Assembly: GCA_014859905.1 (NCBI GenBank)
Contig: JACZKT010000002.1
Coordinates: 1 to 43,393 of the forward strand
Direction: 5' to 3'
Length of the DNA: 43,393 nucleotides
Source: Rubrivivax sp.
GTDB lineage: Bacteria > Pseudomonadota > Gammaproteobacteria > Burkholderiales > Burkholderiaceae_C
Below the pieces are notes generated by a model. That model searched no databases. It was not told where the DNA came from and worked only from the letters and a program-made list of their open reading frames with translations. Shown piece after piece: positions 11,257 through 36,160 of this stretch. Positions within the stretch are counted from its first letter, which is position 1; every line of letters begins with the position of its first letter. The position numbers were made by a program, and so were the translations under genes.

Positions 11257-11257
11257 C

Positions 11258-13876: not shown

Positions 13877-13890
13877 CCGGCGTTGTCCAT

Positions 13891-16848: not shown

Positions 16849-18240
16849 TCAGGCCGCCTCGAGCACCCTGCTGGCCGCATCCAGCTTGCCGAAGCTCGTC
16901 TTGGCTTCTTGGTAGGCGGCGAGGTCGTCTTTGGTCGCGCCGGGCAAGATCACGTTGCCGTAGGCTGTGAGCACGTCGAAGAACTCGTTGCGGAAAGAGT
17001 GGTAGTTCGCATCGCCGTTCTTCAGGTAGCGCGACGTAAGGACCTTCTTGAAGTCCGCATCGATCATGTCCAGTTGCATGTCCCGGGCGGCGTGGATATG
17101 GACCTCGGCGTAATCGGTCTTGAACCTGTCGCTCAGACCGGCGTACTGGGGAACGAATCCGATCCATTGCCGGAGAACGGCATCCCACTTCGAACCCGCT
17201 TCGCCGGGCAGGACCTGCACCCCTGGATGGCTCAGTTTCGCGACGTCGAAAGCGATGCCGTTCCCGCGACCGTGCTGCAGCGCCCGCAGCAGATGCTCCG
17301 AGCCATCGCTTACCGCCCAGCGCATGAATGAATCGGCGACGAAGCGGTTGGTCACCATCTGCTTGAATCGCTGGCGAACCTCCTTCACCCCCGTCGAGGT
17401 GTAGGCCGTCAGACGCTGCCAACTCTGCTCGGATGCGACATAGAAGAAGCCTCCGGTGAATGGATTCCTGTGCAGTCCGTCGGTGGCGCTGTCGTGCAGC
17501 GCATGGTCGACATCCTCGATTGCCATGTATTGCGCCAGGTTGTTGTAGTACTCGCCATCACCGCTGTGGCTGAGTTGCCCCACCCCCGCCACCTGAACCT
17601 TTCCCTGCAATTTCCCGTTTGAGAGATGGCGGGCCAGATCCACGGCCATGCCGCTGCCCGTGCCACCGGCCAGACCGAATGCAATCAGCACGGTCGATGG
17701 CTGCTCGGCCATCAGCACTTGATCGGCAAATCGCTGCAACGCGCCATCGAGCTTGCGCTCACCAAGGAAGTAATTGATCGAATAGATGGCCTTGGCGATC
17801 GCGCGTGGAACGTGCTGACCTTCCTGCGGCATCCGAAAGCCCTTCGGCAGAGTGCCCAGGAGATCGTGCGAATGTTGCCAGCCCTGCTGTTCCTTCCGGA
17901 CGTGTTCACGCGCGGCGTCGAGGTCACGCGCGAAAGCCTTCGCGTCCGGCACGGACAACGAGACCGATTCGAAGTGGAAACGCTCCTGCGGAATGCCACG
18001 GGATTTCAGTCGCTGCTTCAGGGACCGGGCATAGTCGCCGGGGACCTGAATGTCGTCGTCGCCGATGTCGATCAGCAGTGCGGCAAAGGTCGTACCAGGG
18101 GTGGCCAGTCGATCTTCGACTTCGCCGGTCCGGAGCAGGGCCTCGACATACGCGGCCCCTGTGCGTCCGATGCCGATTGCATGGATGCAGTGCGGTTTTG
18201 TCGCGGCATTGGCAATTGCGGCTGTAACTGATGTATTCAT
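16849..18240 (-). CDS. Tubulin/FtsZ-superfamily-like protein 1
   Basis: PHCIHAIGIGRTGAAYVEALLRTGEVEDRLATPGTTFAALLIDIGDDD ... STVLIAFGLAGGTGSGMAVDLARHLS (tubulin signature-like GGTGSG); close relative of 27837..29531. Confidence 0.8.
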   Translation of the reverse strand: MNTSVTAAIANAATKPHCIHAIGIGRTGAAYVEALLRTGEVEDRLATPGTTFAALLIDIGDDDIQVPGDYARSLKQRLKSRGIPQERFHFESVSLSVPDAKAFARDLDAAREHVRKEQQGWQHSHDLLGTLPKGFRMPQEGQHVPRAIAKAIYSINYFLGERKLDGALQRFADQVLMAEQPSTVLIAFGLAGGTGSGMAVDLARHLSNGKLQGKVQVAGVGQLSHSGDGEYYNNLAQYMAIEDVDHALHDSATDGLHRNPFTGGFFYVASEQSWQRLTAYTSTGVKEVRQRFKQMVTNRFVADSFMRWAVSDGSEHLLRALQHGRGNGIAFDVAKLSHPGVQVLPGEAGSKWDAVLRQWIGFVPQYAGLSDRFKTDYAEVHIHAARDMQLDMIDADFKKVLTSRYLKNGDANYHSFRNEFFDVLTAYGNVILPGATKDDLAAYQEAKTSFGKLDAASRVLEAA

Positions 18241-18584
18241 CTCTATCTCCTATGGCTGGAAGAGTTGGAACTTCGGGCGCGGCGCCGCGTTTGCTTGCGA
18301 AGCAGCTCCGGGATTCAATGAGTCGCTAGCGTGCTTTTTATGGAAAGGAATACAAGGCTTCGGCACGTGAACGAACGCCCCGGGTCGAACGGGTTCACGC
18401 ATGGACCTGGGTAAGTGCAAGAAGAGCTGGCGTTGGAGGGGCCTCCACAAGGTCCCACCCGACCTCGTCTTGGACTGGGTGCCGCCGGCACAGCAGACCC
18501 GGCCACGATCAATTACATCCAAGCCGCGAAAATGAACTTGGCAAACCTGGCGCCTGTACCGGCCTTTCGCCGGCCCTGCTTCGA

Positions 18585-19976
18585 TTACATCGGAATGAAG
18601 ATGTATTCCTTGGCCGCTGCTTCGCGCTGAAAGATCTGAACCTGCATGGCGACTTCCTCGGGGCTTAGATCGCCGAAGTGCTGTGTGTTGTAGCGTGCAT
18701 CGGGATGAACCTGCAATGGGGCATAGAAGACTTCGACCCCTGCAGGCAGATGGCGCAGAAATTCCACGGTCTCGCTCACATGTTGGTCATGGAAGCGCGC
18801 GCCGCCGATGCCGGCAATGATGTTCAGACTGACGCCGATCCTTGCCTTGCGAAGCTTTTCGACGGCTTCCAGGCACGCGTCGACCTTCTGACCTCGCTTC
18901 ACCAGATTCAGAATGTCCTGACTGCCAGTTTCTGCACCGATGTTGACGTTCAGCAATCCGCTTTCGCGCAATGAGCTGAGCTCGTCCTGGGACTTCTTGA
19001 TGACGGTCGATGCCTTGGCGAACGCGTGCGCAAAGGGGGCGTCTGCCAGTTCAAAGCGTCGCCGTGCATACGACAGCGTGTGGCCGAGCTGCTGCGCCGG
19101 TACCGTGAGCGCATCCCCCTCAAGCAACACGACCTTAAGAAAGTGATCCAGCTCTTCGCCGAGATAGACGGCCATGGAGTCAATCTGTCTTTCGACGATC
19201 TGGGCTGGAAGAACCCTTATCTTGCGGTCGTAAAGATCGCAAAACGTACAGGGACCGCCGCACCCACCTTGCACCTTAACAGGAATGGCGTGGTAGTGAT
19301 CGAAGGCCAGTTCAGGCGGTTCTACCGAGATCTGCTCGGGGATGTCGAGGATCGTATGGAATCTGCGCGCCTCGTCCAGCAATTGAGCGTGGGACTTGAG
19401 TGGAAGCATCCGCAGGGTGTGCACGATCGCGGCAGCCGCCCCGTTCCATACCGCTTGCGGGCTGTTGATGGCCGCGACGACTTCGTCCAGCACGTGCATT
19501 GACGACTGGTACAGGGGATCATGCTTGGAAACGATCTCGGCCTGATACACCAGCCGACTGTGAGCGTAGCGGTCTGTCCACTTGCCTCGCACCCACGTAC
19601 CACCGATCAGCCTGTGCATCTCCGGGCGATGGCGCGGATAGGACAGCAATCGGAAGTCGTGTTCGAAGGTCGGCGCCGGGATCTGGTACTCGCCCCAGCG
19701 ACTGCCGGTGAAGGAAGCATTCACCATGCGACCCTGGGTGTCGAAATTCAGGAGCCACATGCCGTTGGCGCGCCCCGGGGCACGCACACTCACCTTGTAA
19801 GTGCGCCCGATGCCGAAGGCCTCGAATGCAAGGCCGTTGGACCACAGATCGTACCCGTATTTGCCCTTGTCCCGCGCCGGAATGCGGCCGACCTCGACGA
19901 CCCAGCCATTTGCAAAGGGCCCCAGCGGGATCCATTGGCTCGAATTCAATCCGTCCATCACCTTGCTCATCAGCAT
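18585..19976 (-). CDS. Radical SAM protein with unrecognised N-terminal region
   Basis: 463 aa; C-terminal half VKVQGGCGGPCTFCDLYDRKIRVLPAQIVERQIDSM (CX3CX2C) ... GLLNVNIGAETGSQDILNLVKRGQKVDACLEAVEKLRKARIGVSLNIIAGIGGARFHDQHVSETVEFLR. About 230 aa N-terminal to the cluster. Confidence 0.88.
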   Translation of the reverse strand: MLMSKVMDGLNSSQWIPLGPFANGWVVEVGRIPARDKGKYGYDLWSNGLAFEAFGIGRTYKVSVRAPGRANGMWLLNFDTQGRMVNASFTGSRWGEYQIPAPTFEHDFRLLSYPRHRPEMHRLIGGTWVRGKWTDRYAHSRLVYQAEIVSKHDPLYQSSMHVLDEVVAAINSPQAVWNGAAAAIVHTLRMLPLKSHAQLLDEARRFHTILDIPEQISVEPPELAFDHYHAIPVKVQGGCGGPCTFCDLYDRKIRVLPAQIVERQIDSMAVYLGEELDHFLKVVLLEGDALTVPAQQLGHTLSYARRRFELADAPFAHAFAKASTVIKKSQDELSSLRESGLLNVNIGAETGSQDILNLVKRGQKVDACLEAVEKLRKARIGVSLNIIAGIGGARFHDQHVSETVEFLRHLPAGVEVFYAPLQVHPDARYNTQHFGDLSPEEVAMQVQIFQREAAAKEYIFIPM

Positions 19977-20025
19977 CTCTCCGCATCAAAACGGGAAACA
20001 TGGAACAATCCGGCTCGCCGGCACG

Positions 20026-20328
20026 TCACCAAAAGCCGAGATCCTTGAGCAGGGCGATCGCAATCGTCGGCCTTTCGTCCGAAACGAGTGTCCGATAGTC
20101 GCTGGTCAGGCTGGATGGATCTGGCAGCAGTACCCCCTCGTTGAGCAGTTCGACCGCACGTTCTAGGTTGCAGCGAGAGACGGTTCCCTCGTTGATGACG
20201 GCCCATTTGAAGTAAACCGCATCATCGGCGACCCGGAGGACCTCGAACTTCCTCGAGCCGGTAATGTGCGGCACCATCGTGCCATCCGGATAACGTTGCC
20301 TGACCTGATCCCAATTCAGATTCGGCAT
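20026..20328 (-). CDS. Small conserved protein, partner family of the tubulin-like genes (copy 1)
   Basis: MPNLNWDQVRQRYPDGTMVPHITGSRKFEVLRVADDAVYFKWAVINEGTVSRCNLERAVELLNEGVLLPDPSSLTSDYRTLVSDERPTIAIALLKDLGFW; paralogous to 27390..27722. Confidence 0.75.
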   Translation of the reverse strand: MPNLNWDQVRQRYPDGTMVPHITGSRKFEVLRVADDAVYFKWAVINEGTVSRCNLERAVELLNEGVLLPDPSSLTSDYRTLVSDERPTIAIALLKDLGFW

Positions 20329-20486
20329 GTCTTAACCCTCCGCGTTGAATCTTCCTGTTCGGATGCCGCCGCCATGACCTACTTGAAGCTGCAGCGGCGA
20401 TCGCTGGTCAGTTGGTGCTCGACGGGCGAGCGGTGCTAGTCCGTGTTACTAGAAACGTTCACGCACCCAACGCCATGCTTGAGGAC

Positions 20487-20616
20487 AAAAAAAACTCCGT
20501 CCGGCTAATGCCGGCGGAGAGCTATGTTGCCCTGCGTAGACGCCGGCAATGCTGCCGGTTCCACGCAAATGATGTCTGTGAAGGGACAGGTTAGGCTTGA
20601 CCTGTTGGGGTGTCAA
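20487..20616 (-). promoter_or_regulatory. Leader 4: promoter plus predicted ANTAR-type attenuator upstream of the minus-strand module
   Basis: Minus strand: TTGACA (20616-20611), 17 nt, TAACCT (20593-20588). Hairpin 1 CCGGC-AGCATT-GCCGG (20558-20543). Hairpin 2 AGGGC-AACATA-GCTCT (~20533-20518). Terminator CTCCGCCGGC-ATTA-GCCGGaCGGAG plus U8 (20519-20487). Confidence 0.72.
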
Positions 20617-21629
20617 TAGGGTTGAACCACTCCCGTCCAAGACGGGTTGAGCTTGGAGGTACGTTGAGCCGTCCCGAGGTGTAGGGTAGAGGTGCATCGC
20701 CAAACGCACCCACCCACATCCGGGAGGCTTAACGTGAGAGCACCATGCAGCATGTTCAGTCAGCTGCTCAAGCTGATTCCGCGCGCCGAGTTCGAGAGCT
20801 TGGTCAAGCAGACCAAGGCGCAGTATGCGAGCAAGGGCTTTCCCAGCTGGGCGCAGTTGGTGGCGATGATGTTCTGCCAGCTCGGGCGAGCCCACTCGCT
20901 GCTCGAGGTCGAGGGCGGCCTGACGAGCTGCGAGGGCAAGCTGGCACACCTGTGCATGCAGGCTCCGGCGCGCTCTTCGCTGTCGTAAGCGAATGCGCAT
21001 CGGCCCTGGCAGCTGTTCGAGCAGGTCTTCCACGGTCTGTACGAGAAGGTGTCGAGCAAGGCCACGGGCCGGCGCAAGTTCCGCTTCAAGAACAAGCTCG
21101 TGAGCATCGACTCCACCGTGATCGATGTCGGCCTTTCGATGTTCGACTGGGCCAAGTACCAGCGTACCAAGGACGCGGTCAAGCTGCACCTGGTGCTCGA
21201 CCATGACGGCTACCTGCCGTGCTTCAGGGTGGTCACCGACGGCAAGGTGGCCGACGTGTCGGTGGCGCAGTGGCTGCAGTTCGGCGCCGGCACCATCGTC
21301 GTGGACGACCGAGGCTACAACGACTACGCGCTGTTCGGCCACTGTGGTGCAGCGAGGACGTGTACCTCGTCACCCGCATGAAAAGCGATGGGCGCTACGA
21401 GGTCGTCCGGGAACGGCAAGTGCCGCGGAACCGGAGCATCGTCAGCGACCAGATCATCCGCCTGAGCAGCGCCGGCGCTGCCGACAAGTGCCCCTACGAG
21501 CTGCGCCGCGTCGAAGCCGTGCGCAACGACCGGGGCGAGAACCTGGTGTTCCTGACCAACCTGCACGACCTGGGCGCCAGCACGATCGGGGCGATCTACG
21601 AGGACCGCTGGCAGATCGAGCTGTTCTTC

Positions 21630-24171
21630 GACTGCCTTTCATACTGCACTCCTTCGTATGTTATTGAATATCAAGGGTCATCTGGCCCGAGATGCGAGTT
21701 GACGGGTTTTGCTCAGCTCTGGCGGCGAGGAATTCGTCGAGATCGTCCTGGCGAATGCTCCACGGCGCATTGCGGCAGGCTTGTTTGGCCACGAGGTTCT
21801 TCTGTCGGATCAGGCGCAGCACGGTTGTGTGCGTGACGTGGAGTGCGGCGGCGGCTTCGTCGACGGTCAGCTCACCGCGCTCTTGGCGCTCGCCCTCACG
21901 ATAGGCTGCGATGCCATGTCCCTTGCGGATTGAACACACCCGAGCCGCCGTCCACGTCTGCCCGTGCGCCGTGCGGTGACCCAGTCGATTGATCGTTGCC
22001 GCGATGCGCTCGTCCGGCTGCAGGCGGGCCAGCGAGGTGATCAACTCGATCGTCTCGGCGCTGGTGACGCGGCCATGCCGACCTGTGGGCGCCTTCTTCA
22101 ACCGCAGCTCGGTGTGATCGCCGCCCTGCCAATGCACGATGAAGTGCACCGAGTCGCCATCGGAAGTCACGACGATCTCCTTGACCGCGGTGCGCAAGAT
22201 GCGCTTCTTGACGTCAGGCGAGGTCTCGGGGTGGTCCCACAAGCGCGGCAGGTCCTCGGCCAGTGCAAGCACGGCCTGCTTGGTGTCCGCGCTCAGCGCA
22301 TCGGGCCGTTGCCGCATCAACTCGGCAACCTCCTCTTCAAGCCGTGACTGCATTGCCAACGCTTCGTTCCAGCGCTTCTCCAGCGAGCCAGCGACAAGAC
22401 GGTTTGCCGGGTCCACGGCATCGAACTGTCGCTGCGCGCGGTTGACCTCGTATTGGGCCCGCCGCAGGGCGAGGTGTTTTTGTGCGAGCCGCTCGCCCTC
22501 GACCCCCTGCAAATCCTCGATGGCCTGCAGCGCCGCCTGCAGTGCCTGAGTGTCGAGGCAGCGCAGCACTTGCTCGGCCACCATTCGATCCGCGCCCAAG
22601 CCACCGAACATGACGCAGCAGGCGTGTTCATGGCTGAGGATGCGCGTCGTGCATTGATAGCGAATGCTGGTGGCCCCGGGGTACGCCACGCACAGCTTGG
22701 CCCCGCAATGCCCGCAGCGCAGCAGCCCCGACAACAGCGCGCTGCCGCTCCTGATCGATCCGCGCACGGCTGCGCCACGGCCGTTGGTGTTGTGCGCCAT
22801 CAGTTCCTGATTGCCGCGATACGCGTCCCAGTCGATGTAGCCTTCATGGTGATCGAGGATCATCACGGACCAGTCCTCAGCCTTGCGATGCCGGGTGCGG
22901 ACGACGCGCTTGCGTCCGTTCTCGATGCGCACGCTGGTCTTGCTGCGACCATACGAGTAGACCCCGGCATAGATCGGGTTCTGCAGCAGGCTCAACAGGC
23001 TGTGATAACGCGGCGCCTTCCACTCGACGCGTTCGCTGCTGTCGATGCCGGCCACGACGGGCACGTCGATGCACTGCTCACACAGCCAGAAGTGCAGGCG
23101 CCGCGCACTGCCGAACTCGGCGAACTTGCGGAACACCAAGCCGATGGCCGCGCGCACGCGTTCATCGGGATCCTTCTCGAGCCGGTCGTCGAAGGTGCGC
23201 ACGTAGCCGATGGGCACGCGCATGAACAGCTCACCGCGCTTGGCCTTTTGCTTCATCGCTTCTTGCGCCCGCTGCCTGAAGCTGGCCAGCTCCATCTCGC
23301 TGATCGTGCCCTTCATACCCAGCAGCAGCCGGTCGTTCATCTGCGCGGGATCATAGATGCCATCCGCATCGATGAGCAATGCGCCCACGACGCTGCAGAA
23401 CTCCAGCAGCGTGTGCCAGTCGCGGCCGTTGCGCGCCAAGCGCGAGGCTTCGATGCTCAACACCGCACCGACCTCGCCATCGCACAGCAACCCGAGCAAT
23501 CGGTCGAAGCCCGGGCGCGACGTGCCTGAACCAGATCGCCCAAGGTCGTCGTCAATGACCTCGACCTGCTGCCATCCCAATTGCCGAGCCCGTTCCACCA
23601 GTGCGTACTGCCGGCGTTGGCGCTCGAGGTTGTTCTGCACTTGGTCGGGCGTCGATTGGCGAACGTACACGCAAGCCCGGCGCGACAGATGCTCAGCGGT
23701 GATCTTGTTCATCGGGCGCCTCCTTGTTGATCGCCAGGGCCACGATTTGCATCCACTGCACCATCTGCTGCAGTAGCTGCATCTGAACGTCTTGTGGCAG
23801 TCGCGGTAAGGGTGTTGATTCGGCGTCTTCGAACAACATGGCTTGAGCCATCGGGCGTGGCGGCATCGCGCTCTCCTCTGGGGCTTGTACAGGCCCCACA
23901 GGATAGGAACGTCGACACCCAACGGCGCAGTTCCACCAACGCCGAAAGTGACACGCGCGGCCGCTCGACGATCTGCACATTGCCGGCGGCGATCTCGGTC
24001 ATCCACGCGGGAACCGACACGGTTGATCCGTCGGGCCGACGCACGACATAGCAAGGCTCGTCGTGGACGACGTGCAGTCTTACGACTGCAAGGCATTCAC
24101 CAATGAGAGGATGAAAACGATAGCGGACTACAACGTCACGCGGGACATGTTGACGGGCAGAATGGCGCCCC
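21630..24171 (-). mobile_element. Serine recombinase-encoding element inserted into the IS4 transposase gene
   Basis: Splits the transposase at ...IELFF|FFKALKQN...; the short repeat GTTCTTC is present at both junctions (21623-21629, 24172-24178). Confidence 0.7.
21661..23712 (-). CDS. Large serine recombinase (resolvase/invertase N-terminus, recombinase and zinc ribbon domains)
   Basis: MNKITAEHLSRRACVYVRQSTPDQVQNNLERQRRQYALVERARQLGWQQVEVIDDDLGRSGSGTSRPGFDRLLGLLCDGEVGAVLSIEASRLARNGRDWHTLLEFC ... LLSGLLRCGHCGAKLCV; C-terminal HTH (LTVDEAAAALHVTHTTVLRLIRQ). Confidence 0.95.
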   Translation of the reverse strand: MNKITAEHLSRRACVYVRQSTPDQVQNNLERQRRQYALVERARQLGWQQVEVIDDDLGRSGSGTSRPGFDRLLGLLCDGEVGAVLSIEASRLARNGRDWHTLLEFCSVVGALLIDADGIYDPAQMNDRLLLGMKGTISEMELASFRQRAQEAMKQKAKRGELFMRVPIGYVRTFDDRLEKDPDERVRAAIGLVFRKFAEFGSARRLHFWLCEQCIDVPVVAGIDSSERVEWKAPRYHSLLSLLQNPIYAGVYSYGRSKTSVRIENGRKRVVRTRHRKAEDWSVMILDHHEGYIDWDAYRGNQELMAHNTNGRGAAVRGSIRSGSALLSGLLRCGHCGAKLCVAYPGATSIRYQCTTRILSHEHACCVMFGGLGADRMVAEQVLRCLDTQALQAALQAIEDLQGVEGERLAQKHLALRRAQYEVNRAQRQFDAVDPANRLVAGSLEKRWNEALAMQSRLEEEVAELMRQRPDALSADTKQAVLALAEDLPRLWDHPETSPDVKKRILRTAVKEIVVTSDGDSVHFIVHWQGGDHTELRLKKAPTGRHGRVTSAETIELITSLARLQPDERIAATINRLGHRTAHGQTWTAARVCSIRKGHGIAAYREGERQERGELTVDEAAAALHVTHTTVLRLIRQKNLVAKQACRNAPWSIRQDDLDEFLAARAEQNPSTRISGQMTLDIQ

Positions 24172-24595
24172 GTTCTTCAAGGCGCTCAAGCAGAACGTGA
24201 AGATCAAGACCTTCGTGGGCACCTCGGCCAACGCCGTGAAGACGCAGATCTGGACAGCACTGATCTGCATGCTGCTGCTGCGCTACCTGCAGATGTCGTC
24301 CAAGTTCGGCTGGAGCATGGCCAACCTGGTGGCGCTGCTGCGCATGAATCTGTTCACCCACCGCGACCTGATGGCGTGGATCGAGCAGCCCTTCGCGGCG
24401 CCACCGGACCCAGCGCACGCGCAGGAATCGCCGCAGGCTACGCTGGCGTTCACCTGATGTTGGACAGCACAAGGGGCCACGATTGCCGCACCGCCCACCG
24501 AAACCGTCTCAGTCCCAGGTCAGATCACGCCCGGACAACCCGAGGGCTGGCTGTTTTGGACAGCAGTGGGGTTGAACCCAGATTTTCAGTGAGTG

Positions 24596-24727: not shown

Positions 24728-24843
24728 CATTTGGCGGACGGGCGGCATGACCCTGTCGCGCCACGCCGCGATGCGGCGCCCAGGCGCAGCCTGACCCCAG
24801 GCTGGAGCAACACGACCAACCACCAAGAAAGAGGAGACTGGAA

Positions 24844-25858: not shown

Positions 25859-27382
25859 ATGTCTTCAATTGCAGGATTCGACCTTCTCCGTGGACGGCCC
25901 TTGCCGGCCATCGGCACCACCGAAGCCAAGCTGCAGCAGCGCAAGCTCGACGCGCTCAAGCGCGGCGTGCATCGTATTGCCGACGCGGCCAAGCTCCCGT
26001 TCGGCATCCATCTGATCGGCGTCGGCGGCGCCGGGGTGCGCGTCGTCGAGCAGTTCCTGCGCGACGCACCCGCCGATCTCCTCGGCGTGCCGGGCTCGCG
26101 ACTCACTGCGCTGGCGCTCGACATCGGCGAGCACGACCTTGCCGGCGTGCGTGAACTGGCAGGCAGGTTCGGACCAAAGGAATCGCAGGTCGAGGCGGTC
26201 GCGCTGCAGATGCCCACACGGGAGGAACTGGAGGACACGCTCTCGCGCTACTGCGAGTTTCTCAAGCTCGAGTACCCCATGTACCACGTGAACCCCGACT
26301 CGGCGGCGTGGCTTCCCACGGACGCAGTGCCACCGGGCACAGGCAATCCGGTTCCGCGCGCGATCGCCAAGGCAGTCTACGGCCGAGCGTTCTACGACGC
26401 CGAGCGGCCGATGCAGGCGGCTCTGAAGCGCTTTGCACGCAATGTCGAGGCGACGGGCGGGGATTCGCTGGTGTGCATCGTGTTCGGCCTTGCCGGCGGC
26501 ACCGGCAGCGGCATCGCGCTCGACCTCGCGCGGCATCTTTCCTGCGGCCTGTTCGGACGCCGGGTGCTGGTCACGGGCATCGGCATCGCGCCGCATGAAG
26601 AGGATGCGCTCACGCATAGCGGGGCTTCGCTGTTTCCTGTCCTGGCCGAACTTGATTGCCTGTGCGACCAGGAAAAGAACAACGGCATCACGCTGTCCTG
26701 CGGCGAGCAATACAGGAACCCGTTCACCGCCGGATTCATCCTTGTGCCGCAGCCCGGCGGCAGCGGGGTCGAGACCACGCGCGCGGTGGTCAACCGTGAG
26801 CTCGCCTTGCTGTTCATGCAGCGCCGTGGCGCCAACCTGTGGGAGACGCTTCGGTTGCTGAACTGGGTCGCCGCGCCATCCACGCAGCACTCGGCGGCGC
26901 GCACGCCTTGGGGCGCACGCTGGATTCACCTGTACGGCTTCGGTGAGGGCTCGGCGCCGCCCCAAGGCCTCGACGTGCGGAGGGCTCTGGGCCTGCTGCC
27001 GGACTATTCACCCGAGTTCATCGAACTCCGGGCTGCAGAAGGCGCAGATCCGGCGTCCCTGTCGGCATGGGCGAGGACGCTGGACACCGCATTGGCGCCG
27101 GAGGTGCCAGCGCATCAGGTGGGCGGCGGACGCCCGGGATCGATTCAGTTCGTGCTGCCGCGGATCGCCAAGACCGATCTGGCTGTCTTCTTTGCTGCCC
27201 GCGAGGCCTACGACGCCTTGCTGCCCGCTGAACGGCATGGCGCCCATGCGTTGCTGCTTGAGCAGGGTGTGCTGCTTTGCGAGCCGTCAAGCAGGCTCGA
27301 AGGCATGGCTGGCGCCAGCCTCGGCAAGGGTGGCCAGTGGGTCGCTGTCCCGATGGACGCACTGCGCGGCAACGTCGCTTGA
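25859..27382 (+). CDS. Tubulin/FtsZ-superfamily-like protein 2 (divergent paralogue)
   Basis: FGIHLIGVGGAGVRVVEQFLRDAPADLL...LTALALDIGEHD ... DSLVCIVFGLAGGTGSGIALDLARHLSCGLFGRRVLVTGIGIAP; start placed at ATG 25859 (MSSIAGFDLL). Confidence 0.8.
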   Translation: MSSIAGFDLLRGRPLPAIGTTEAKLQQRKLDALKRGVHRIADAAKLPFGIHLIGVGGAGVRVVEQFLRDAPADLLGVPGSRLTALALDIGEHDLAGVRELAGRFGPKESQVEAVALQMPTREELEDTLSRYCEFLKLEYPMYHVNPDSAAWLPTDAVPPGTGNPVPRAIAKAVYGRAFYDAERPMQAALKRFARNVEATGGDSLVCIVFGLAGGTGSGIALDLARHLSCGLFGRRVLVTGIGIAPHEEDALTHSGASLFPVLAELDCLCDQEKNNGITLSCGEQYRNPFTAGFILVPQPGGSGVETTRAVVNRELALLFMQRRGANLWETLRLLNWVAAPSTQHSAARTPWGARWIHLYGFGEGSAPPQGLDVRRALGLLPDYSPEFIELRAAEGADPASLSAWARTLDTALAPEVPAHQVGGGRPGSIQFVLPRIAKTDLAVFFAAREAYDALLPAERHGAHALLLEQGVLLCEPSSRLEGMAGASLGKGGQWVAVPMDALRGNVA

Positions 27383-27389
27383 AGGAGAA

Positions 27390-27722
27390 ATGACGATGCC
27401 ACTCGACTGGAAGACCGTGATCGACAAGTACGGCAAGGGTGCCCAGGTGCCCACCGTGGCCGGTGGCAAGTTCCTCACCGTCGCCCGCGTCGACGACGAG
27501 GCTATCTATATTGAATCGCCGATCTGGAGCGCAAAGCTGCACCGAGTCAACATCGAGAAGGGTGTCGAGCTGATCGAGGCAGGCACGATCTCGCGCGACC
27601 CTGGCCTCTTCGTTGAGGACTACATGCTGTACGTCGCCCACGAGCGCGCGTCCTCCGTCGCGCACATCCTGCGCGACCTCGGCATCCTCGACCGGACCGA
27701 GACTTTCACGATCCGTTGCTGA
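27390..27722 (+). CDS. Small conserved protein, partner family of the tubulin-like genes (copy 2)
   Basis: MTMPLDWKTVIDKYGKGAQVPTVAGGKFLTVARVDDEAIYIESPIWSAKLHRVNIEKGVELIEAGTISRDPGLFVEDYMLYVAHERASSVAHILRDLGILD..; SD GAAGGAGAA; paralogous to 20026..20328. Confidence 0.8.
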   Translation: MTMPLDWKTVIDKYGKGAQVPTVAGGKFLTVARVDDEAIYIESPIWSAKLHRVNIEKGVELIEAGTISRDPGLFVEDYMLYVAHERASSVAHILRDLGILDRTETFTIRC

Positions 27723-27836: not shown

Positions 27837-29531
27837 ATGACCACATCTGCATCCATGTATCACAGCGGCACCGGCGTCCAGTCGCCGCACTGCATTCACG
27901 CCATCGGCATCGGCCGGACCGGCATGGCCTACATCGAGGCTCTGCTTCGCACCGGTGAGATCGAGGACCTGCTCGATGACCCGCGCGCGACCTTCGCCGC
28001 GATGGTCGTCGACATCGGTGACCAGGACATGGGCGTGGTCAGCGACTACGCCCACTCGTTCAAGAAGCGCCTCGAATCGCGCGGTATCCCGGCCGACCGC
28101 TTCAACTACCAGGCGATCGCACTGCCGGTCCCGCCGAAAGACGAGTTCTTCGAGGGGATGAACCGCACACGCGAGTACCTGAAGCTCGAGTACCCGCGCT
28201 ACTACTGGAACCCGAACTTCGAGTCTTACGTGCCTCACAAGTATCAGTTGCCGGCGGCAGGCAGTCACTTCCCGCGGGCCGTTGCCAAGGGCATCTACGC
28301 CAACGCCTATTACGCCGGCGAGCGGCCGTTGGACCATGCACTGCGCCAATTCGTCGCCCAGGTCGAGAAGGCCGCATTGCCATCAATGGTGTTGGTCGCG
28401 TTTGGCATGGCCGGCGGCACCGGCAGCGGCATGGTCGTCGACCTCGCCCGGCACCTATCGAATGTCAAGCTCGGACGGCGCATCCCGGTCATCGGCGTGG
28501 GTCAGCTCTCCCACAGTGGAGACCCGGCGGAGTACTACAACAATGCGACGCAGTACACGACGATGAACGACCTCGACTGCATGCTCGACGACGACAAGAA
28601 CGCGGGCGTCACCGCGGTCTGGGGCGACCTGTATCGCAGCCCATTCACCGGCGGCTTTTTCGTCGTGAATCCAGAGCAGAGCTGGCAGCGCCTGACCGCC
28701 TATACGACCACCGGCGAGAAGGAAGTGCGGCAGAACTTCAAGCAGATGGTGACGAATCGCTTTGTCGCCGACTCATTCATGCGCTTCGCAGTGCTCGAGA
28801 ACGGGCGCGTGCTGTTCCGGGCGCTGCGGCCGGCTGGCTTCACCGGCGCGCCGCACGAGACGGTGTCAGCCAAGGCGCGCAACTGGACGCTGTTCGATCC
28901 GGCCAAGCTGACCCACCCGGGCGTCCAGGTACTGCCGGGCGAAGCCGGTTCAAAGTGGGATGCGGTCATCGCGCAGTGGATCGACTTCGTGCCGAAATAC
29001 AGCGGGCTGAAGGACGGCTTCAAGACCGACTATGCCGAGATCCACGTACATGCGTCACGCGACATGAACCCGGAGTTCTTGAGCAAGGCGTTCAATGAAG
29101 TGGTAACGAAGAACTATCTGCTCGATTCGGAGTCGACAGTCCAACTCTACAACCACGAGTTCTTCGACACGCTGACGGCTTACGCGGACATCATCCTGCC
29201 CGGCGTCGCGAAGACCGACCTGATCGGGTTCTGGGAAAGCCAGAAGGTCTACGACAAGATGGATTGGGAGTCCAAGCTCAACGAGCATGCCTGGCTGATC
29301 GACATCGGCCCGATGCTGTCCGAGCCCGCGATCCGCTTCGAGGGCATGGCCGGCGAGTGCATCTGGGGTTGCGCATGCTGGGTCGTGGTGCCTTACGACC
29401 AGCTGCGCGGCGACAAGCTGCCGCCGCCGAACCGCAAGGTGATCATGGAGGAAGGCATCGCGGCGATGACCAAGACCGTGGTCAAGACCCCGGGCGGCGA
29501 CGCGAAGAAGCTCGCCAAGGCGCACGCCTGA
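27837..29531 (+). CDS. Tubulin/FtsZ-superfamily-like protein 3
   Basis: 564 aa; PHCIHAIGIGRTGMAYIEALLRTGEIEDLL ... SMVLVAFGMAGGTGSGMVVDLARHLSNVKLGRRIPVIGVGQLSHSGDPAEYYNN. Confidence 0.82.
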   Translation: MTTSASMYHSGTGVQSPHCIHAIGIGRTGMAYIEALLRTGEIEDLLDDPRATFAAMVVDIGDQDMGVVSDYAHSFKKRLESRGIPADRFNYQAIALPVPPKDEFFEGMNRTREYLKLEYPRYYWNPNFESYVPHKYQLPAAGSHFPRAVAKGIYANAYYAGERPLDHALRQFVAQVEKAALPSMVLVAFGMAGGTGSGMVVDLARHLSNVKLGRRIPVIGVGQLSHSGDPAEYYNNATQYTTMNDLDCMLDDDKNAGVTAVWGDLYRSPFTGGFFVVNPEQSWQRLTAYTTTGEKEVRQNFKQMVTNRFVADSFMRFAVLENGRVLFRALRPAGFTGAPHETVSAKARNWTLFDPAKLTHPGVQVLPGEAGSKWDAVIAQWIDFVPKYSGLKDGFKTDYAEIHVHASRDMNPEFLSKAFNEVVTKNYLLDSESTVQLYNHEFFDTLTAYADIILPGVAKTDLIGFWESQKVYDKMDWESKLNEHAWLIDIGPMLSEPAIRFEGMAGECIWGCACWVVVPYDQLRGDKLPPPNRKVIMEEGIAAMTKTVVKTPGGDAKKLAKAHA

Positions 29532-29636
29532 CGGGTGCGTAGTGGATTGCCGGGGCCGGCCCTTCGGGGTGGCCCCGGCTTCCCGCAGTTTCGGTCGCCC
29601 GAACAGGCGACGGCGGATCCAGGCAATGAGGCACAC

Positions 29637-30617
29637 ATGAGCTCCAGACACGCAGACGGCAAGATTCCGGTGACCGTCATCACCGGGTACCTCGGATCCG
29701 GCAAGACCACCTTGCTCAACCACATCCTGCGCGAGCAGCATGGCCGCAAGGTGGCAGTGATCGTCAACGAATTCGGCGAGGTGGGCATCGACGGCCAGCT
29801 GATCGTGCAGGACGACGACGAGCAGCTCGTCGAGTTCAACAACGGCTGCCTGTGCTGCACCGTGCGCGGCGACCTGATCGAAACCATCGGCCGGCTGCAG
29901 CAGCGTGCCGACCAGCTCGACGCCATCATGATCGAGACCACCGGCCTCGCCGACCCGGCCCCGGTGGCGTCGACGTTCTTCGTTTCCGACGAAGTGCGTG
30001 CGGGGACGCGTCTCGATGCCTTCGTCACCGTGGTCGACGCGGTCAACCTCGCGAAGAACCTTGAGCAGAGCGCGGAGGCGCAGGAGCAGGTCGCCTTCGC
30101 CGACATCGTGCTGATCAACAAGACCGACCTGAGCACCGAAGAACAGGTGGCGCAGGTCGAGCGCGACGTGCGCGCGCTGAACCCGCTGGCGCGCATCCAC
30201 CGCAGCGCGCACGGCGTGGTCGACCTCGGATTGATCATGAACGTCAACGCCTTCCAGCTCGCGGCCAAGCTGCAGGTCGATCCAGCATTCCTTTCCGACC
30301 ACGAGCATGAGCACGACCCGGAGATCAGCTCGATCGTTCTGCGCGAGACCCGCCCGATCGACATGAACCGATTCATGTCCTGGATGGCGCCGATGCTGCA
30401 GGAACAGGGCGATCGCTACCTACGCACGAAGGGCGTCTTCAACGCGCACGGTTTCCGCGAGCGCGTCGTGTTCCAGAGCGTGCGCATGCTGACGACGATG
30501 ACCCGTTTCAATTCCTGGGAGGCCGGCGACGCTAGGCTGAGCGAGTACGTCGTCATCGGCCGTCATCTCGACCGCCAGGCCCTGGAGGCCGGTTTCGCCC
30601 GCTGCGTCGCAGCCTGA
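29637..30617 (+). CDS. COG0523 / CobW-family metallochaperone-type GTPase
   Basis: [45 protein letters not shown] ... [13 protein letters not shown] (CXCC) ... VLINKTDL. Confidence 0.95.
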
Positions 30618-30633
30618 AGTCTCGGGAGACCCC

Positions 30634-31464
30634 ATGAACGTCGAACTGCTATCGACTTCTGGTCTCGTGCTGATGTTCGTCCTTGGGCTGCGGCACGGAT
30701 TGGACCCTGACCACATTGCCTGCATCGACGGCCTGACTTGGCGCGCGCTGAACCAGGCCCACGATCACGCGCACTGGATCGGTACGCTGTTCGCGATCGG
30801 TCACGGTCTTCTTGTGACGGCCATCGCGGTCGGCGTCAGCCGCCTAAGCCACGCCATCGAAGTGCCAGATGCCGTGGTCCTGGTCCTTGAGTGGGTTCCG
30901 ACCGCACTGTTGCTGCTGGTCGGCACGCTCAACCTGCGCCTGCTGCGGCAGCAGGATCAGCCCTTCCAGCCCACTGGCTGGAAGCTCAAGCTGATACCGC
31001 AGCGTCTGCGCAACCACTCGAGCCCCTGGGCGGTGGTGCTGATCGGGGTGATGTTCGCGACCGTGTTCGATACGGCGACCCAGGCCTCGGCCTGGGGCTT
31101 CGTCGCCAGCAACAAGGGCGGTGGCGTGCTGGCCGCGCTGGCCGCCGGCCTGGTGTTCACTGCCGGCATGGTGATCACGGACACGCTCGACGGGCGGCTG
31201 ATCTGCCGCATCAGTTGCAGCGCCGGCGGGGAGGCCAAGGGCCGCCGCTACCGTCGCACGCTCGGCTGGCTGATCGTCGTCATCTCGTACGGCGTGGCGG
31301 CTTACAACATCGGCAAGGCCTTGCTGCCGGCGATCGAACTCGACGATCTCGCCTTCTCGCTCACCGGCTTCTCGCTGATCGCCGTGATGTTGGTCGTCTG
31401 GGGCTGGCTCGCGTTCGCGCGCAGCCGGCGTATTGCGAACGACCCCATCCGGAGCACAGGCTGA
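30634..31464 (+). CDS. NiCoT/HoxN-type nickel-cobalt permease
   Basis: LGLRHGLDPDHIACIDGLTWRAL (RHxxDxDH signature), IGTLFAIGHGLLVT, ATVFDTATQASAWGF; multiple TM segments. Confidence 0.88.
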   Translation: MNVELLSTSGLVLMFVLGLRHGLDPDHIACIDGLTWRALNQAHDHAHWIGTLFAIGHGLLVTAIAVGVSRLSHAIEVPDAVVLVLEWVPTALLLLVGTLNLRLLRQQDQPFQPTGWKLKLIPQRLRNHSSPWAVVLIGVMFATVFDTATQASAWGFVASNKGGGVLAALAAGLVFTAGMVITDTLDGRLICRISCSAGGEAKGRRYRRTLGWLIVVISYGVAAYNIGKALLPAIELDDLAFSLTGFSLIAVMLVVWGWLAFARSRRIANDPIRSTG

Positions 31465-31480
31465 CCAGGAACACACTGCC

Positions 31481-32299
31481 ATGGACGAGCACATCCTTCC
31501 CTACCTCATCGAGGACCAGCCCTATTACCGGGCCGCCGGCAACGAAATCGTACTGTTCGAGGCGGCGATGAAGCGTCGGCTGCCGATGGTGCTGAAGGGT
31601 CCGACGGGCTGCGGCAAGACCCGCTTCATCGAGTACATGGCCTGGCGCATGAAGCGGCCCCTGATCACGATGGCGTGCAACGAAGATATGACAGCGTCGG
31701 ACCTGATCGGCCGCTACCTGCTCGATGTCGATGGCACCGTCTGGCACGACGGCCCGCTGACGATCGCCGCTCGCTACGGCGCCATTTGCTACCTCGACGA
31801 GGTGGTCGAGGCGCGCCAGGACACCAACGTCGTGATCCACCCGCTGACCGACGACCGGCGCATGCTGCCGCTGGACAAGCGGGGCGAGGTCGTGCACGCG
31901 CACCCTGATTTCAGGCTGGTGGTGTCCTACAACCCAGGCTACCAGAGCGTGGCCAAAGACATGAAGCCGTCGACCAAGCAGCGCTTCGGCGCGATCGACT
32001 TCGACTTCCCGGCGGCCGACATCGAAGCTGAGGTCATCGCCCATGAAAGCGGCATCGACCGCGATATGGCGGCCAGCCTGGTGGGCATCGCGCAGAAGTC
32101 GCGCGCCCTGCGCGGTCGCGGGCTGGAAGAGGGCATCTCGACACGCATGCTGATCCACGCAGGGGGCCTGATCACCGACGGCATCGACGTGCACGACGCC
32201 TGCAGACTGGCGATGACTGCGCCGATCACCGACGACGAAGACTTGCTTGCCGCGCTCGACGGCTTTGTCGAGGCCTACTTCGGGCCCCGGCCGGCGTGA
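31481..32299 (+). CDS. MoxR-class AAA+ ATPase of the CbbQ/NirQ/NorQ type (copy 2)
   Basis: [118 protein letters not shown]. Confidence 0.93.
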   Translation: MDEHILPYLIEDQPYYRAAGNEIVLFEAAMKRRLPMVLKGPTGCGKTRFIEYMAWRMKRPLITMACNEDMTASDLIGRYLLDVDGTVWHDGPLTIAARYGAICYLDEVVEARQDTNVVIHPLTDDRRMLPLDKRGEVVHAHPDFRLVVSYNPGYQSVAKDMKPSTKQRFGAIDFDFPAADIEAEVIAHESGIDRDMAASLVGIAQKSRALRGRGLEEGISTRMLIHAGGLITDGIDVHDACRLAMTAPITDDEDLLAALDGFVEAYFGPRPA

Positions 32300-34320
32300 C
32301 GGCGATGGGGCAGCAGGACGACGTCCGCGTCTCCGGCCGGCTGCGCACGCTGCGCGAGACCGATGGGCAGGCGTACGAGGGGTTGCTGGCGGCGTTGCCC
32401 GAAGTGGGGGAAGGGCTGGTCGGCGGCGAGCGACTGGCCGAACTGCTCGACCTGCTGAACCAGACGGCCATCGAGGCCCCCGCGTGCGCCGAGGCACTCG
32501 TCGCGCGGCTGGCGACCCTGCCCTCGGCAGTCGACCTGCCGGCGCTGCGCAAGTGGGCAGTGCGCGGGCTGCAACTGCATGCCACGAATCCGGCCGAGGC
32601 CTTGCGCCACTTCGAGAGGGAAGACCCGCTCGACTTCGTCCGGTCCGACACGGACGACGACGAGCAGTGGGCGCACCGGCAAGGCCAGCTGATGCACTAC
32701 CTGGCCGGCTTCGGCCATCCCGAGATCGGTGTCGAGGTGCACCGGAAGACGACTGGGCGACGCCTGGCGAGGCGGGTGACGCTCGAAGACGGGCTGTTAC
32801 TGCTGCCGCGGCCCTTTGGTCCCGCCGACCCTCGCTCGCGCGGCGACCTGCACCGTGCGGCGGCCGCGCACTCGCTGGCGCATCTGATGTTCTCGCCGCT
32901 GCATCGCCCCGTCGCCAACCGACCGCCGATGCTCCTGGCCCTGATCTCGCTGATGGAGGACACGCGCGTCGAGCGCCTGATGGCGCAGCGCTACCCGGGT
33001 TTGCGCGCACTTTGGCACCGCTTCCACCTCGCGAACCGCGAGTCGGCGGGTTTCGAGTTCAACGGTCTGGCAGCGCGGCTGGCCCGCGCGCTGCATGATC
33101 CCGACTACGTTGACAGCAACGCCTGGGTCAACAAGGGCCGGCTGCTGTTCGAGGAGGTAGCGGCGCAGGGCCTGGGCAATGTCGCCGCGTTCGACCACGT
33201 CGGGCGCGTGCTGACGCGCCAGCTGCTGCGCCTGGGCCTACCGTTCCAGGCTGAGACCTACCGGTTGGAACCACCGTACCGCGACGACAACACGGTGCTG
33301 TGGAATGCCGACGAGCCACGACCGGAGGACGAGCAGCAAGCCGTCGTACGCGACGACTTCGAGCTGCTGGAGGACGAACCGAAGGATGCGCCGCGCTCGG
33401 ACCTCCGGCAGGTCGAAGTGGACATGCGCCGGCGCACGGCCTACCCCGAGTGGGACTTCAAGCTCGAGGAATTGCGCGACGGCTGGGTGACCGTCTTCGA
33501 CGAGACCGAGGCAGGCGATCTGCCAGTCGGTCGGCGCGGCGTGTTGCCGCCCACCCTGCGCAAGACCCCACGACCGCCGGGCCTGGACCGCGTGCCCGAC
33601 CGCTCCATCCGCCTGGCCCGGCTGCACGAGGGCGACGAGCTCGACCTGAGTGCCGCGGTGGACAGCCGCATCCTGCTGCGAGGGCGCGTCGCTCCCGATC
33701 CGCGTATCTTCAGGCGGCACGGGCGGCGGCGGCGCTCCGCAGCGGTCGTGCTGCTGATGGATCTTTCGGCGTCGACCCAGCACTTCGTGCCGGGCAGCTT
33801 CATCAGCGTGCTCGATCTCGAAAAGCGTGCCGCGGCCCTGGTGGCCGAATCGTTCGACGCGTCGCGCGATCGGATCGCGGTGCACGGGTTTCGATCCAAC
33901 GGCCGGCGAGAGGTCAGCTACCTGCACATCAAGGACTTCGACGAGCCGTTCGGCAGCGTGCAGCGTCAGCGTCTGGAGCGTCAGCAGGGTAGGCTTTCTA
34001 CGCGCATGGGCGCCGGGCTGCGGCACGCCAGCGCGGCCCTCGCCGCGGAGCATGTCGATCAGAGGGTGATCCTTTTGCTGACCGATGGCGAGCCTTCGGA
34101 CGTCGACGTGCTCGAGGAAGACTACCTCGTGGAGGACGCCCGCCAGGCCGTGGCTACCGCCGCGTCGCGCGGCATCCGGACCCTCTGCCTCACGCTCGAC
34201 CGCGACGCCGACCACTACGTGCGCCGCATCTTCGGCGAACGTCACTACCTGATCGTCGATCGGGCCGATGCGTTCACGACCCGCCTGGCGCAGACGCTGG
34301 TGCGCACCGTGGCGCACTGA
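32296..34320 (+). CDS. NorD/CbbO-type von Willebrand factor A protein (copy 2)
   Basis: 674 aa; VWA with VVLLMDLSASTQHFVPGS (MIDAS DLSAS), LLTDGEPSDVDVLEEDYLVEDARQAVATAASRGIRTLCLTLDRDADHYVRRIFG. Confidence 0.92.
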   Translation: MTAMGQQDDVRVSGRLRTLRETDGQAYEGLLAALPEVGEGLVGGERLAELLDLLNQTAIEAPACAEALVARLATLPSAVDLPALRKWAVRGLQLHATNPAEALRHFEREDPLDFVRSDTDDDEQWAHRQGQLMHYLAGFGHPEIGVEVHRKTTGRRLARRVTLEDGLLLLPRPFGPADPRSRGDLHRAAAAHSLAHLMFSPLHRPVANRPPMLLALISLMEDTRVERLMAQRYPGLRALWHRFHLANRESAGFEFNGLAARLARALHDPDYVDSNAWVNKGRLLFEEVAAQGLGNVAAFDHVGRVLTRQLLRLGLPFQAETYRLEPPYRDDNTVLWNADEPRPEDEQQAVVRDDFELLEDEPKDAPRSDLRQVEVDMRRRTAYPEWDFKLEELRDGWVTVFDETEAGDLPVGRRGVLPPTLRKTPRPPGLDRVPDRSIRLARLHEGDELDLSAAVDSRILLRGRVAPDPRIFRRHGRRRRSAAVVLLMDLSASTQHFVPGSFISVLDLEKRAAALVAESFDASRDRIAVHGFRSNGRREVSYLHIKDFDEPFGSVQRQRLERQQGRLSTRMGAGLRHASAALAAEHVDQRVILLLTDGEPSDVDVLEEDYLVEDARQAVATAASRGIRTLCLTLDRDADHYVRRIFGERHYLIVDRADAFTTRLAQTLVRTVAH

Positions 34321-34359
34321 CGCCTGCCCGCCACGCCCGCAACCCTGAAGGAGAGCAGC

Positions 34360-34846
34360 ATGACCATCAAGACCGGTGACCGTCTGCCCTCGGCCAGCTT
34401 CAAGCAACTCACCTCCACTGGCGTCGTCGAAGTCGGCACCGACGCGCTGCTGAAGGGCAAGAAGGCTGCCTTGTTCGGCCTGCCCGGCGCCTCACGCCGG
34501 TCTGTTTGGCCAGTCACCTGCCCGGCTGCGTCGAAGACGTCGGCAAGCTACGGGCTGCCGGATTCGACACCATCGCTTGCATCTCGGTCAACGACTCGAC
34601 CCGTTCGGGATGGACGCCTGGGGCAAGGCCCATGGCGCCGACGGCAAGGTGATGATGCTCGCGAACGCCGATGCGACCTTCACGAGGGCCATCGGCATGG
34701 ATGTCGACCTGCCCGCTTTCAGTCTGCTGGACCGCTCACAGTGCTGCTCGATGATCGTCGAGGACGGCGTCGTCAAGCAGCTCGACGTCGAGAAAAGCGT
34801 GCTCGACCACGATGGCACCAGCGCCACTTGCATGCTCGGGTCGTAG
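34360..34846 (+). pseudogene. Peroxiredoxin (Prx5/redoxin-like) carrying two frameshifts
   Basis: MTIKTGDRLPSASFKQLTSTGVVEVGTDALLKGKKAALFGLPGA | TPVCLASHLPGCVEDVGKLRAAGFDTIACISVND | PFGMDAWGKAHGADGKVMMLANADATFTRAIGMDVDLPAFSLLDRSQCCSMIVEDGVVKQLDVEKSVLDHDGTSATCMLGS. Confidence 0.85.
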
Positions 34847-35078
34847 TTCTCATGGTCGTGACCCACAGGCCTCGCCGCTGGCTTCAGCGGGCTTCTCTTT
34901 CGTCCCGGGGCATCGGCCCCGGCGACGCCACAACGACCCGATACCGGGCGCCTCCACGGTTGCGCCCGCTCGGTGTTCGAGGCTGCAGCACTGCTGCCAG
35001 CCAAATTGCCGGCCGCAGCACCGCGGTCGGTGGTTCTTGCCTGCGTTGAACTCCAACCCCTCTTTCCAAGGAGATGCC

Positions 35079-35264
35079 ATGAATACCTCAACAGCGTCAT
35101 TGATCGCCCCGCCGGGCACGCGCAGCTATTCCGTTTTGTCGTCACTGATTGGCGCCATGCTGCTCGGTCTCGTCATCGTCTTCGCAACCGGCTTCAGCGA
35201 CGTAAGCGCCGCCCACAATGCGGCACACGACATGCGGCACGCCAGCGCTTTTCCTTGCCATTGA
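35079..35264 (+). CDS. cbtB: CbtB-like small membrane protein with His-rich C-terminus
   Basis: 61 aa; MNTSTASLIAPPGTRSYSVLSSLIGAMLLGLVIVFATGFSDVSAAHNAAHDMRHASAFPCH; SD CAAGGAGATGCC; directly upstream of cbtA. Confidence 0.88.
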   Translation: MNTSTASLIAPPGTRSYSVLSSLIGAMLLGLVIVFATGFSDVSAAHNAAHDMRHASAFPCH

Positions 35265-35368
35265 ACGGCGCATCCTGAGTCCGCTGCGGCCTCGGGGCAG
35301 CTTGCTTCCGAGGGCCGGCGCCCTGCCGGGCGGCGGCGGCTCGCCCTGTCTTCGATGAGGAGAAAATC

Positions 35369-36160
35369 ATGTTGTTCAAACGTCTGTTCCTGTGCGCGTT
35401 GCTGGTCGGGCTGTTTGCCGGGCTGACCTACAGTGCGATCCAACGTTGGCAGGTCGTCCCGACCATCGTCGCAGCCGAGGTGTTCGAGTCGGCACTCGCA
35501 CCCGAGGCCGCGGCCGATCACCACCCACCGGGCACGGCCGCCCATGTGCATAACGAGGCGGCCTGGGAGCCTAAGGAGGGTGCCGAGCGCCTGTTTTGGA
35601 CGGTCGTCGCCAACGTGCTTGGCGCGACCGGCTTTGCGTTGCTGCTGATTCCTGCCCTGGCCTGGTGGGACCGACAGCGCGGCGGCAACGGGGCCTTGCT
35701 GCGCAGCGGGCTGGTCTGGGGTGCCGCCGGATGGCTTTGTGTGTTTGTATGGCCGGCCCTAGGTTTGGGTCCCGAGCTGCCGGGCCAAGCCGCAGCTGGG
35801 CTGCACCTTCGCCAGGCCTGGTGGTTACTGGCCGTCGTCTGCGCAGCCGGCGGGCTTGCTCTGCTGAGCCTGGTACCCGGCAAGATTCGCTGGCTCGGCT
35901 TGCCGCTGCTGGCGTTGCCCTTCATCGTTGGTGCACCCGATTTCGGCGGGCCGGCCTTCGCAAGCTACCCGGCCGAAGCGGCGGCGCAGATGGAACTGTT
36001 GAGGTCGCGTTTCATCGTCGCAACCTTCATAGCGAGTGCGGTGCAGTGGCTGGTGCTTGGGGCGTTGTGCGGAATCGTGGTCGAGCGCTGGTTGCGCCCG
36101 CTGTTGGCATTGCCGCCGGCCGCCGACGCGCTGCCAGCCGTGATGCGGCCCGCTGCCTGA
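35369..36160 (+). CDS. cbtA: CbtA-like predicted cobalt transporter subunit
   Basis: 263 aa; MLFKRLFLCALLVGLFAGLTYSAIQRWQVVPTIVAAEVFE...; 5-6 TM segments; adjacent to cbtB. Confidence 0.88.
   Translation: MLFKRLFLCALLVGLFAGLTYSAIQRWQVVPTIVAAEVFESALAPEAAADHHPPGTAAHVHNEAAWEPKEGAERLFWTVVANVLGATGFALLLIPALAWWDRQRGGNGALLRSGLVWGAAGWLCVFVWPALGLGPELPGQAAAGLHLRQAWWLLAVVCAAGGLALLSLVPGKIRWLGLPLLALPFIVGAPDFGGPAFASYPAEAAAQMELLRSRFIVATFIASAVQWLVLGALCGIVVERWLRPLLALPPAADALPAVMRPAA

Follow-up and report, generated by a model that had tools for sequence, protein, structure and literature searches.

The 43,393-nucleotide stretch of Rubrivivax sp. DNA considered here (contig JACZKT010000002.1 of assembly GCA_014859905.1; hereafter, at its full length, the window) encodes three tubulin-like proteins, two of which, Anh1 and Anh2, are the products of genes that flank a small gene for an AnhE-type protein. 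From homology and gene content, the region is very probably a mobile nitrile-degradation island whose core enzyme is of the acetonitrile hydratase (ANHase) type, an unusual kind of cobalt enzyme that converts nitriles to amides. As a proteobacterial form of a system already known, the cluster is most notable for placing a described cobalt enzyme in the tubulin superfamily. We regard it as probable that ANHase is a tubulin-superfamily metalloenzyme, that is, an alpha/beta-tubulin-like heterodimer that kept its nucleotide pocket, that has a cobalt claw, C-x3-C-A-C, independent of that of classical nitrile hydratase (NHase), and that lost active sites on three occasions. For the window itself, homology, gene order and conservation are established, as is the fold by prediction.

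A gene trio of the acetonitrile hydratase type

In Rhodococcus jostii RHA1 the AnhE gene stands between the alpha and beta genes of acetonitrile hydratase (alpha - AnhE - beta), and its product serves as a cobalt metallochaperone rather than a subunit-swapping chaperone (PMC3680314, PMC3511329). On pRHL2 of this strain, an amidase gene is followed by genes for a 514-amino-acid tubulin-like protein, a 99-amino-acid protein and a 568-amino-acid protein, and then by a nickel transporter gene. The computed masses of this trio (RS41530 - RS41535 - RS41540), which an aliphatic amidase gene and an AmiC-like gene adjoin, are 55.8, 11.1 and 63.0 kDa, and we take 11.1 kDa to be the published mass of AnhE as well.

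The window carries a trio that matches the pRHL2 locus in gene order and in sequence. It consists of an Anh1-type subunit gene (25859..27382, +), whose product is 50-74% identical to Anh1 of other loci; an AnhE-type cobalt metallochaperone gene (27390..27722, +), 38% identical to RHA1 AnhE and 79% to an Agrobacterium gene; and an Anh2-type subunit gene (27837..29531, +), 50% identical to its RHA1 counterpart. The open frame of the Anh1 gene reaches upstream to 25703, the start at 25859 being taken from comparison with the Agrobacterium homologue. As in anhA-anhE-anhB, two homologous large-subunit genes flank the AnhE gene. Genes for an AmiE-type aliphatic amidase (11987..13027, +; Pfam CN_hydrolase, 4.9e-49; 84% identical to an Agrobacterium aliphatic amidase) and for an AmiC/UrtA-like amide-binding sensor (7273..8478, -; Peripla_BP_5, 1.7e-132) are linked to the trio, though 12-20 kb from the subunit genes, and the sensor gene is accompanied by that for an AmiR-like ANTAR antiterminator (6627..7280, -; AmiR_N, 1.4e-33; ANTAR, 1.5e-13). 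We conclude that RS41530-RS41540 of pRHL2 are anhA-anhE-anhB and that the window carries their homologue. Because of the homology, the gene order and the linked amidase, the tubulin-like Anh1 and Anh2 are most likely the enzyme's own subunits, and not the polymer-forming helpers or compartment that a first-pass annotation of this DNA had seen in them. The small partner proteins that it proposed are real (27390-27722, + and 20026-20328, -, mutual homologues with 35% identity that matched nothing in the family libraries tried). They are not undescribed, however, being AnhE, the described cobalt metallochaperone; and where that annotation recognised no published system of this composition, the core is in fact known from RHA1.

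The window and RHA1 have in common two paralogous large subunits around AnhE, an AmiE amidase, an AmiC-type sensor and a Ni/Co transporter nearby. Unlike RHA1, where the first subunit gene encodes the Cys motif described below, the window has it in the second; it also has AmiR/ANTAR instead of MarR, and adds CobW, NorQ/NorD, CbtAB, AnhS, AnhE2 and a radical S-adenosylmethionine (SAM) protein. The nearest annotated relative is a plasmid locus of Agrobacterium tumefaciens MWF001 (CP129670.1, QYR00_24470-24560; Anh2 80% identical), which shares AmiC, ANTAR, CobW, ferredoxin, CbtB, CbtA, two NorQ/NorD pairs, AnhS and the amidase with the window but lacks the radical SAM/AnhE2 pair. The annotation calls the genes of this locus hypothetical or 'tubulin-like', and we know of no study of it.

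Classical Co/Fe nitrile hydratase (PF02979, with a C-x-L-C-S-C claw) resembles the system in its expected reaction, its use of cobalt, a Cys-x-Cys-containing loop and a dedicated metallochaperone, whereas the Anh proteins have no sequence relation to it, a different fold, and the spacing C-x3-C-x-C rather than C-x2-C-x-C. In Pfam searches, the Anh proteins matched only tubulin families; neither NHase_alpha/beta domains nor the C-x-L-C-S-C motif was found in them. A predicted structure of AnhE (27390-27722; predicted local distance difference test score, pLDDT, 82) gave no match in the PDB at E<=0.001, and hence nothing that ties it to NHase activators or beta subunits. Three weak PDB matches of the AnhE profile, of which the best (E 2.7e-4) was an entry named tau, were judged to be due to chance; no stretch of them passes alone.

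Several points weigh against this identification. Equating the pRHL2 genes with anhA, anhE and anhB relies on their order, size and location, together with published work of 2007 and 2010. The Cys-bearing subunit is encoded by the first gene in Rhodococcus and by the second in the window, so that subunit roles are not simply transferable. The reported metal content of ANHase is one Co, two Cu and one Zn (PMC3766881), and a single Cys motif leaves the Cu and Zn unexplained. In addition, the genome encodes a classical NHase on another contig (locus L075, 4274-9045), and the window locus could therefore serve other nitriles. The genome so appears, by homology, to hold two unrelated nitrile hydratase systems. 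The neighbours of the classical alpha-subunit gene are genes for an amidase, a NicO transporter and CobW.

Tubulin fold and cysteine loop

All three large proteins match tubulin families in Pfam, with best E-values of 6e-8 for Anh1 (to Tubulin_2), 2.3e-6 for Anh2 and 2.1e-6 for AnhS, a shortened Anh2 paralogue without the Cys motif (16849..18240, -). Tubulin_2 was matched by 73 of 77 homologues and Tubulin by 69, and the 43 PDB sequences found with the family profile at E<=1, the best of them at E 3.3e-5, are without exception FtsZ, TubZ or Asgard tubulin. In line with these profile searches, the AlphaFold2 model of Anh2, predicted from an alignment of 72 sequences, has a mean pLDDT of 89.5 and a predicted template modelling score of 0.90 (alignments for structure prediction were built without rows from plasmid records). 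A Foldseek search of the PDB with this model placed FtsZ at the top (E 1.3e-9), and the 50 matches listed are all FtsZ, tubulin, TubZ or CetZ, with TM-scores of about 0.5-0.6 when normalised by target length. Profiles and predicted structure support a tubulin fold well beyond chance, which bears out the first-pass annotation on this point.

With the tubulin/FtsZ superfamily (FtsZ, TubZ, CetZ and tubulin; PF13809, PF00091) the Anh proteins share the fold, the T1 motif G-x-G-x-x-G, the T2 Asp and the T4 motif G-G-T-G-S-G; they differ from it in their length of about 560 residues, a three-Cys C-terminal loop and an enzyme-type operon context. The nucleotide-site residues G24, G26 and G29 (T1), D59 (T2), and G194 and G196 (T4) are invariant in 72/72 rows, including Cys-less AnhS, and the nucleotide pocket is therefore likely to be kept. 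No FtsZ-like catalytic T7 motif was recognised in the Anh proteins on inspection by eye. A nucleotide held in this pocket may regulate how the ANHase subunits pair, how metal is loaded, or catalysis. Although databases already name some family members 'tubulin-like', a literature search from which subscription journals were largely missing found no paper joining nitrile hydratase and the tubulin superfamily, and we found no solved ANHase structure. Archaeal tubulin-like proteins (L054-L063 except L056; open reading frames of about 570-900 amino acids) are 25-33% identical to the Anh N-terminal domain; having neither the Cys motif nor the partners, they were set aside.

A loop close to the C-terminus, modelled with confidence (block pLDDT 90-93), carries the motif E-C-x-x-G-C-A-C-W, which is identical in 53/53 rows that have it. 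Anh2 of the window has ECIWGCACW at this place, its cysteines being C508, C512 and C514 when counted from the start at 27837, and Anh1 has ASLGKGGQW instead. Where both subunits could be aligned, the motif is present in both at 16 loci, only in Anh2 at nine, only in Anh1 at seven and in neither at none. In a tree built without the motif columns, Anh1 and Anh2 form two old clades (Shimodaira-Hasegawa-like approximate likelihood ratio test support, 98 each), with window protein 25859-27382 in the Anh1 clade, and the motif changes three times independently: Anh1 has lost it in a clade of Proteobacteria to which the window belongs, whereas Anh2 has lost it once in the Rhodococcus/Gordonia/Williamsia/Mycobacterium type and once in Paenibacillus together with a metagenome-assembled genome (MAG) of the Alicyclobacillaceae. 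Loss from either subunit but never from both is what would be expected of a duplicated active site. As a candidate cobalt claw, the C-x3-C-A-C loop could offer the same kind of ligands as C-x-L-C-S-C of classical NHase. If this is correct, a tubulin fold would have been turned into a metalloenzyme; ANHase would acquire a fold, along with a probable site for its metal and residues that can be tested, and the database name 'tubulin-like domain-containing protein' would be corrected for what is most likely an enzyme.

Neighbourhood conservation and proposed mechanism

A scan of the genomes of 84,980 species revealed 42 bacterial loci with clear relatives, from Pseudomonadota, Myxococcota, Cyanobacteriota, Bacillota and Actinomycetota, and ten weak matches, nine of them archaeal. 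A tblastn search of plasmids returned 15 records, 12 of them from Rhodococcus, and no relatives were found in the phage collection. The plasmid matches L007 and L011, in which AnhS is accompanied by no more of Anh2 than a C-terminal remnant, were left out of the full clusters. The Anh trio is known from about 48 loci in five bacterial phyla, which would widen the range of ANHase beyond Rhodococcus and could be of use in biocatalysis and nitrile clean-up. Conservation of the neighbourhood was counted over 42 loci of at least 11 kb, among them the window and six loci on plasmids. The figures are tied to the reference set used and for the most part to flanks of 10 kb, and genomes that are related to one another do not count as independent. 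Anh1-AnhE-Anh2 occurs in 41/42 loci, an aliphatic amidase in 34, an AmiC-type sensor in 33, and some cobalt importer in 30, these importers being of three kinds with no relation to one another (NiCoT, CbtAB and CbiMQ). The constant theme is cobalt import and amide use, and no separate conserved metalloenzyme was seen in these neighbourhoods. The consistent co-location proposed by the first-pass annotation fails for MoxR/VWA (NorQ/NorD; 8/42, all Pseudomonadota), CobW (17/42) and the radical SAM protein (2/42): the tubulin-like genes do occur without these components, but not without the small protein and usually not without cobalt importers. Several actinobacterial loci (L029, L034, L035, L036, L039 and L051; near 4.6-5.0 kb or 11.7-13.2 kb) contain extra AnhE paralogues, which form two further clades, one of them long-branched.

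In the window, the plus strand continues after Anh2 with genes for a CobW/COG0523 GTPase that probably delivers metal (29535..30617; Pfam cobW, 1.1e-61), a NiCoT/NicO-type Co/Ni transporter (30634..31464; NicO, 7.7e-18), a NorQ/CbbQ AAA+ ATPase (31433..32299; CbbQ_C, 4.3e-30), a NorD/CbbO-like VWA protein (32296..34320; VWA, 2.3e-7), a peroxiredoxin-like protein (34360..34846), and the cobalt transporter subunits CbtB (35079..35264; CbtB, 1e-19) and CbtA (35369..36160; CbtA, 1.9e-39). A second pair of a CbbQ_C-type AAA+ ATPase beside a VWA protein (NorQ/CbbQ, 13034..13876, CbbQ_C, 1.9e-31; NorD-like, 13873..16092, VWA, 2.3e-7) is encoded on the same strand, as is a (2Fe-2S) ferredoxin-domain-like protein (16106..16465), which has no Pfam match and is 57% identical to QYR00_24495 of Agrobacterium. 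The gene classes listed in the first-pass annotation are present at or near the places where it put them, and the composition it gave stands, except that three-frame translation reveals two frameshifts in the peroxiredoxin-like gene, through decay or draft-assembly errors, and that the amide genes lie outside 16849-36160. Its wider proposal of a cobalt-dependent enzyme system, with AmiC/AmiR-type amide control, cobalt import and maturation factors, appears to be right as far as the sequences indicate.

NorQ/NorD and CbbQ/CbbO pairs activate metalloenzymes. GTPases of the CobW family (COG0523) serve in the maturation of Fe-type NHase and of cobalamin; classical NHases of the Co type apparently need none (PMC9164220). 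The Rhodococcus ANHase loci do without CobW and NorQ/NorD, and we infer the role of both in the window from adjacency alone. In the mechanism that we propose, Anh1 and Anh2, as paralogous tubulin-fold subunits, would form the enzyme. Cobalt would enter via NiCoT and/or CbtAB and be passed on by CobW and AnhE, with AnhE delivering it to the enzyme, while NorQ/NorD, as an AAA+ and VWA pair, would remodel the apo-enzyme for metal insertion. The metal would most likely sit in the Anh2 loop E-C-I-W-G-C-A-C-W, in a claw of Cys thiolates and the backbone amides of Cys-Ala-Cys that would be convergent with the classical C-x-L-C-S-C. The enzyme would then hydrate small nitriles to amides, AmiE would hydrolyse the amide to acid and ammonia, and AmiC/AmiR would sense the amide. 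We infer that the window copy is catalytic, where its metal sits, in which order the metal is passed on and what NorQ/NorD do.

Minus-strand module, alternatives and mobility

On the minus strand, AnhS (55% identical to Anh2) is accompanied by a radical SAM protein with a family-specific N-terminal domain (18585..19976; Pfam, 8.6e-13) and by AnhE2 (20026..20328; 60% identical to AnhE2 of L023), a divergent AnhE of a radical-SAM-linked clade. Each module has an Anh-like and an AnhE-like protein, so that 'convergently composed', as the modules had been called, is apt in this respect, but the minus-strand Anh is a shortened, Cys-less paralogue. In the tree AnhS groups with homologues from L015 and L052 within the proteobacterial part of Anh2. 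At least five further loci (L005, L007, L015, L017 and L052), all with NorQ/NorD, also carry it. Reading past its stop yields no Anh C-terminus. That AnhS is merely a pseudogene cut by its TGA was rejected as the sole reading, because a shortened, Cys-less AnhS recurs in L005, L015, L017 and L052. An open reading frame just past AnhS in the same frame (16507-16836, -), without a Pfam match, was not counted as a small partner. The radical SAM protein scores far below every cut-off of the NCBIfam equivalogs; its cluster motif C-x3-C-x2-C (CGGPCTFC in the window) is kept in three family members, and its N-terminal domain is conserved in two other genomes.

Known tubulin-superfamily proteins are polymer-forming GTPases, and the supported fold, together with nucleotide-binding motifs conserved in every row, would suit a scaffold or compartment that helps to mature a separate cobalt enzyme. 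We nevertheless consider this highly improbable, since the neighbourhoods conserve no separate metalloenzyme, the genes are homologous to those of the ANHase subunits and stand in the same order, and the invariant Cys motif sits in the tubulin-like proteins themselves. Somewhat less remote, but still unlikely, is the reading that the locus encodes a diverged relative of ANHase whose substrate is another one (a different nitrile, an isonitrile, cyanide or thiocyanate), the amidase either handling its product or being a mere neighbour. An identity of about 50% to the RHA1 subunit leaves room for such a change, and the classical NHase elsewhere in the genome also speaks for it; against it, an aliphatic amidase and AmiC/AmiR-type genes are conserved alongside, as in RHA1.

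We likewise doubt that AnhE2, the radical SAM protein and AnhS constitute a separate enzyme with its own cofactor chemistry and ANHase-derived parts. AnhE2 does belong to a distinct clade (support 100/99), seen in no genomes but the three that encode this family of radical SAM proteins, and AnhS is fast-evolving as well as Cys-less. However, ANHase is present in all three of these genomes, and in one of them, a Myxococcota MAG (L023), the AnhE2-radical SAM pair directly follows the ANHase operon; 398 other genomes of the same phylum, like the plasmid collection, contain no full-length relative of the radical SAM protein, only the generic radical SAM core. Moreover, AnhS occurs without a radical SAM protein in four of the loci listed above (L005, L015, L017 and L052) and is therefore not a fixed part of the module. 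With three cases only, the tie of radical SAM protein and AnhE2 to ANHase is suggestive, and our expectation that AnhS, AnhE2 and the radical SAM protein act on the maturation or assembly of an ANHase-type enzyme is a guess.

No Anh genes were found in 60 related genomes, 36 of them of the same genus. This absence, the plasmid location elsewhere and the transposase and recombinase genes that surround the Anh cluster show that it is mobile. A large serine recombinase with a helix-turn-helix domain is encoded between the two Anh modules (21661-24096), and its presence beside IS4, IS66 and other transposases hints that the mobile island is a composite one. At 10777-11947, a Tat-signal binding-protein gene ends with TAG after 141 amino acids and is directly followed by a gene for a UrtE-like ABC ATPase; we read these as what is left of an amide/urea ABC transporter after an internal deletion. 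Further downstream lie a TonB-dependent receptor fragment (38552-39487) and a cation-efflux (CDF) protein (41931-42932), which possibly serve metal uptake and efflux in the same island.

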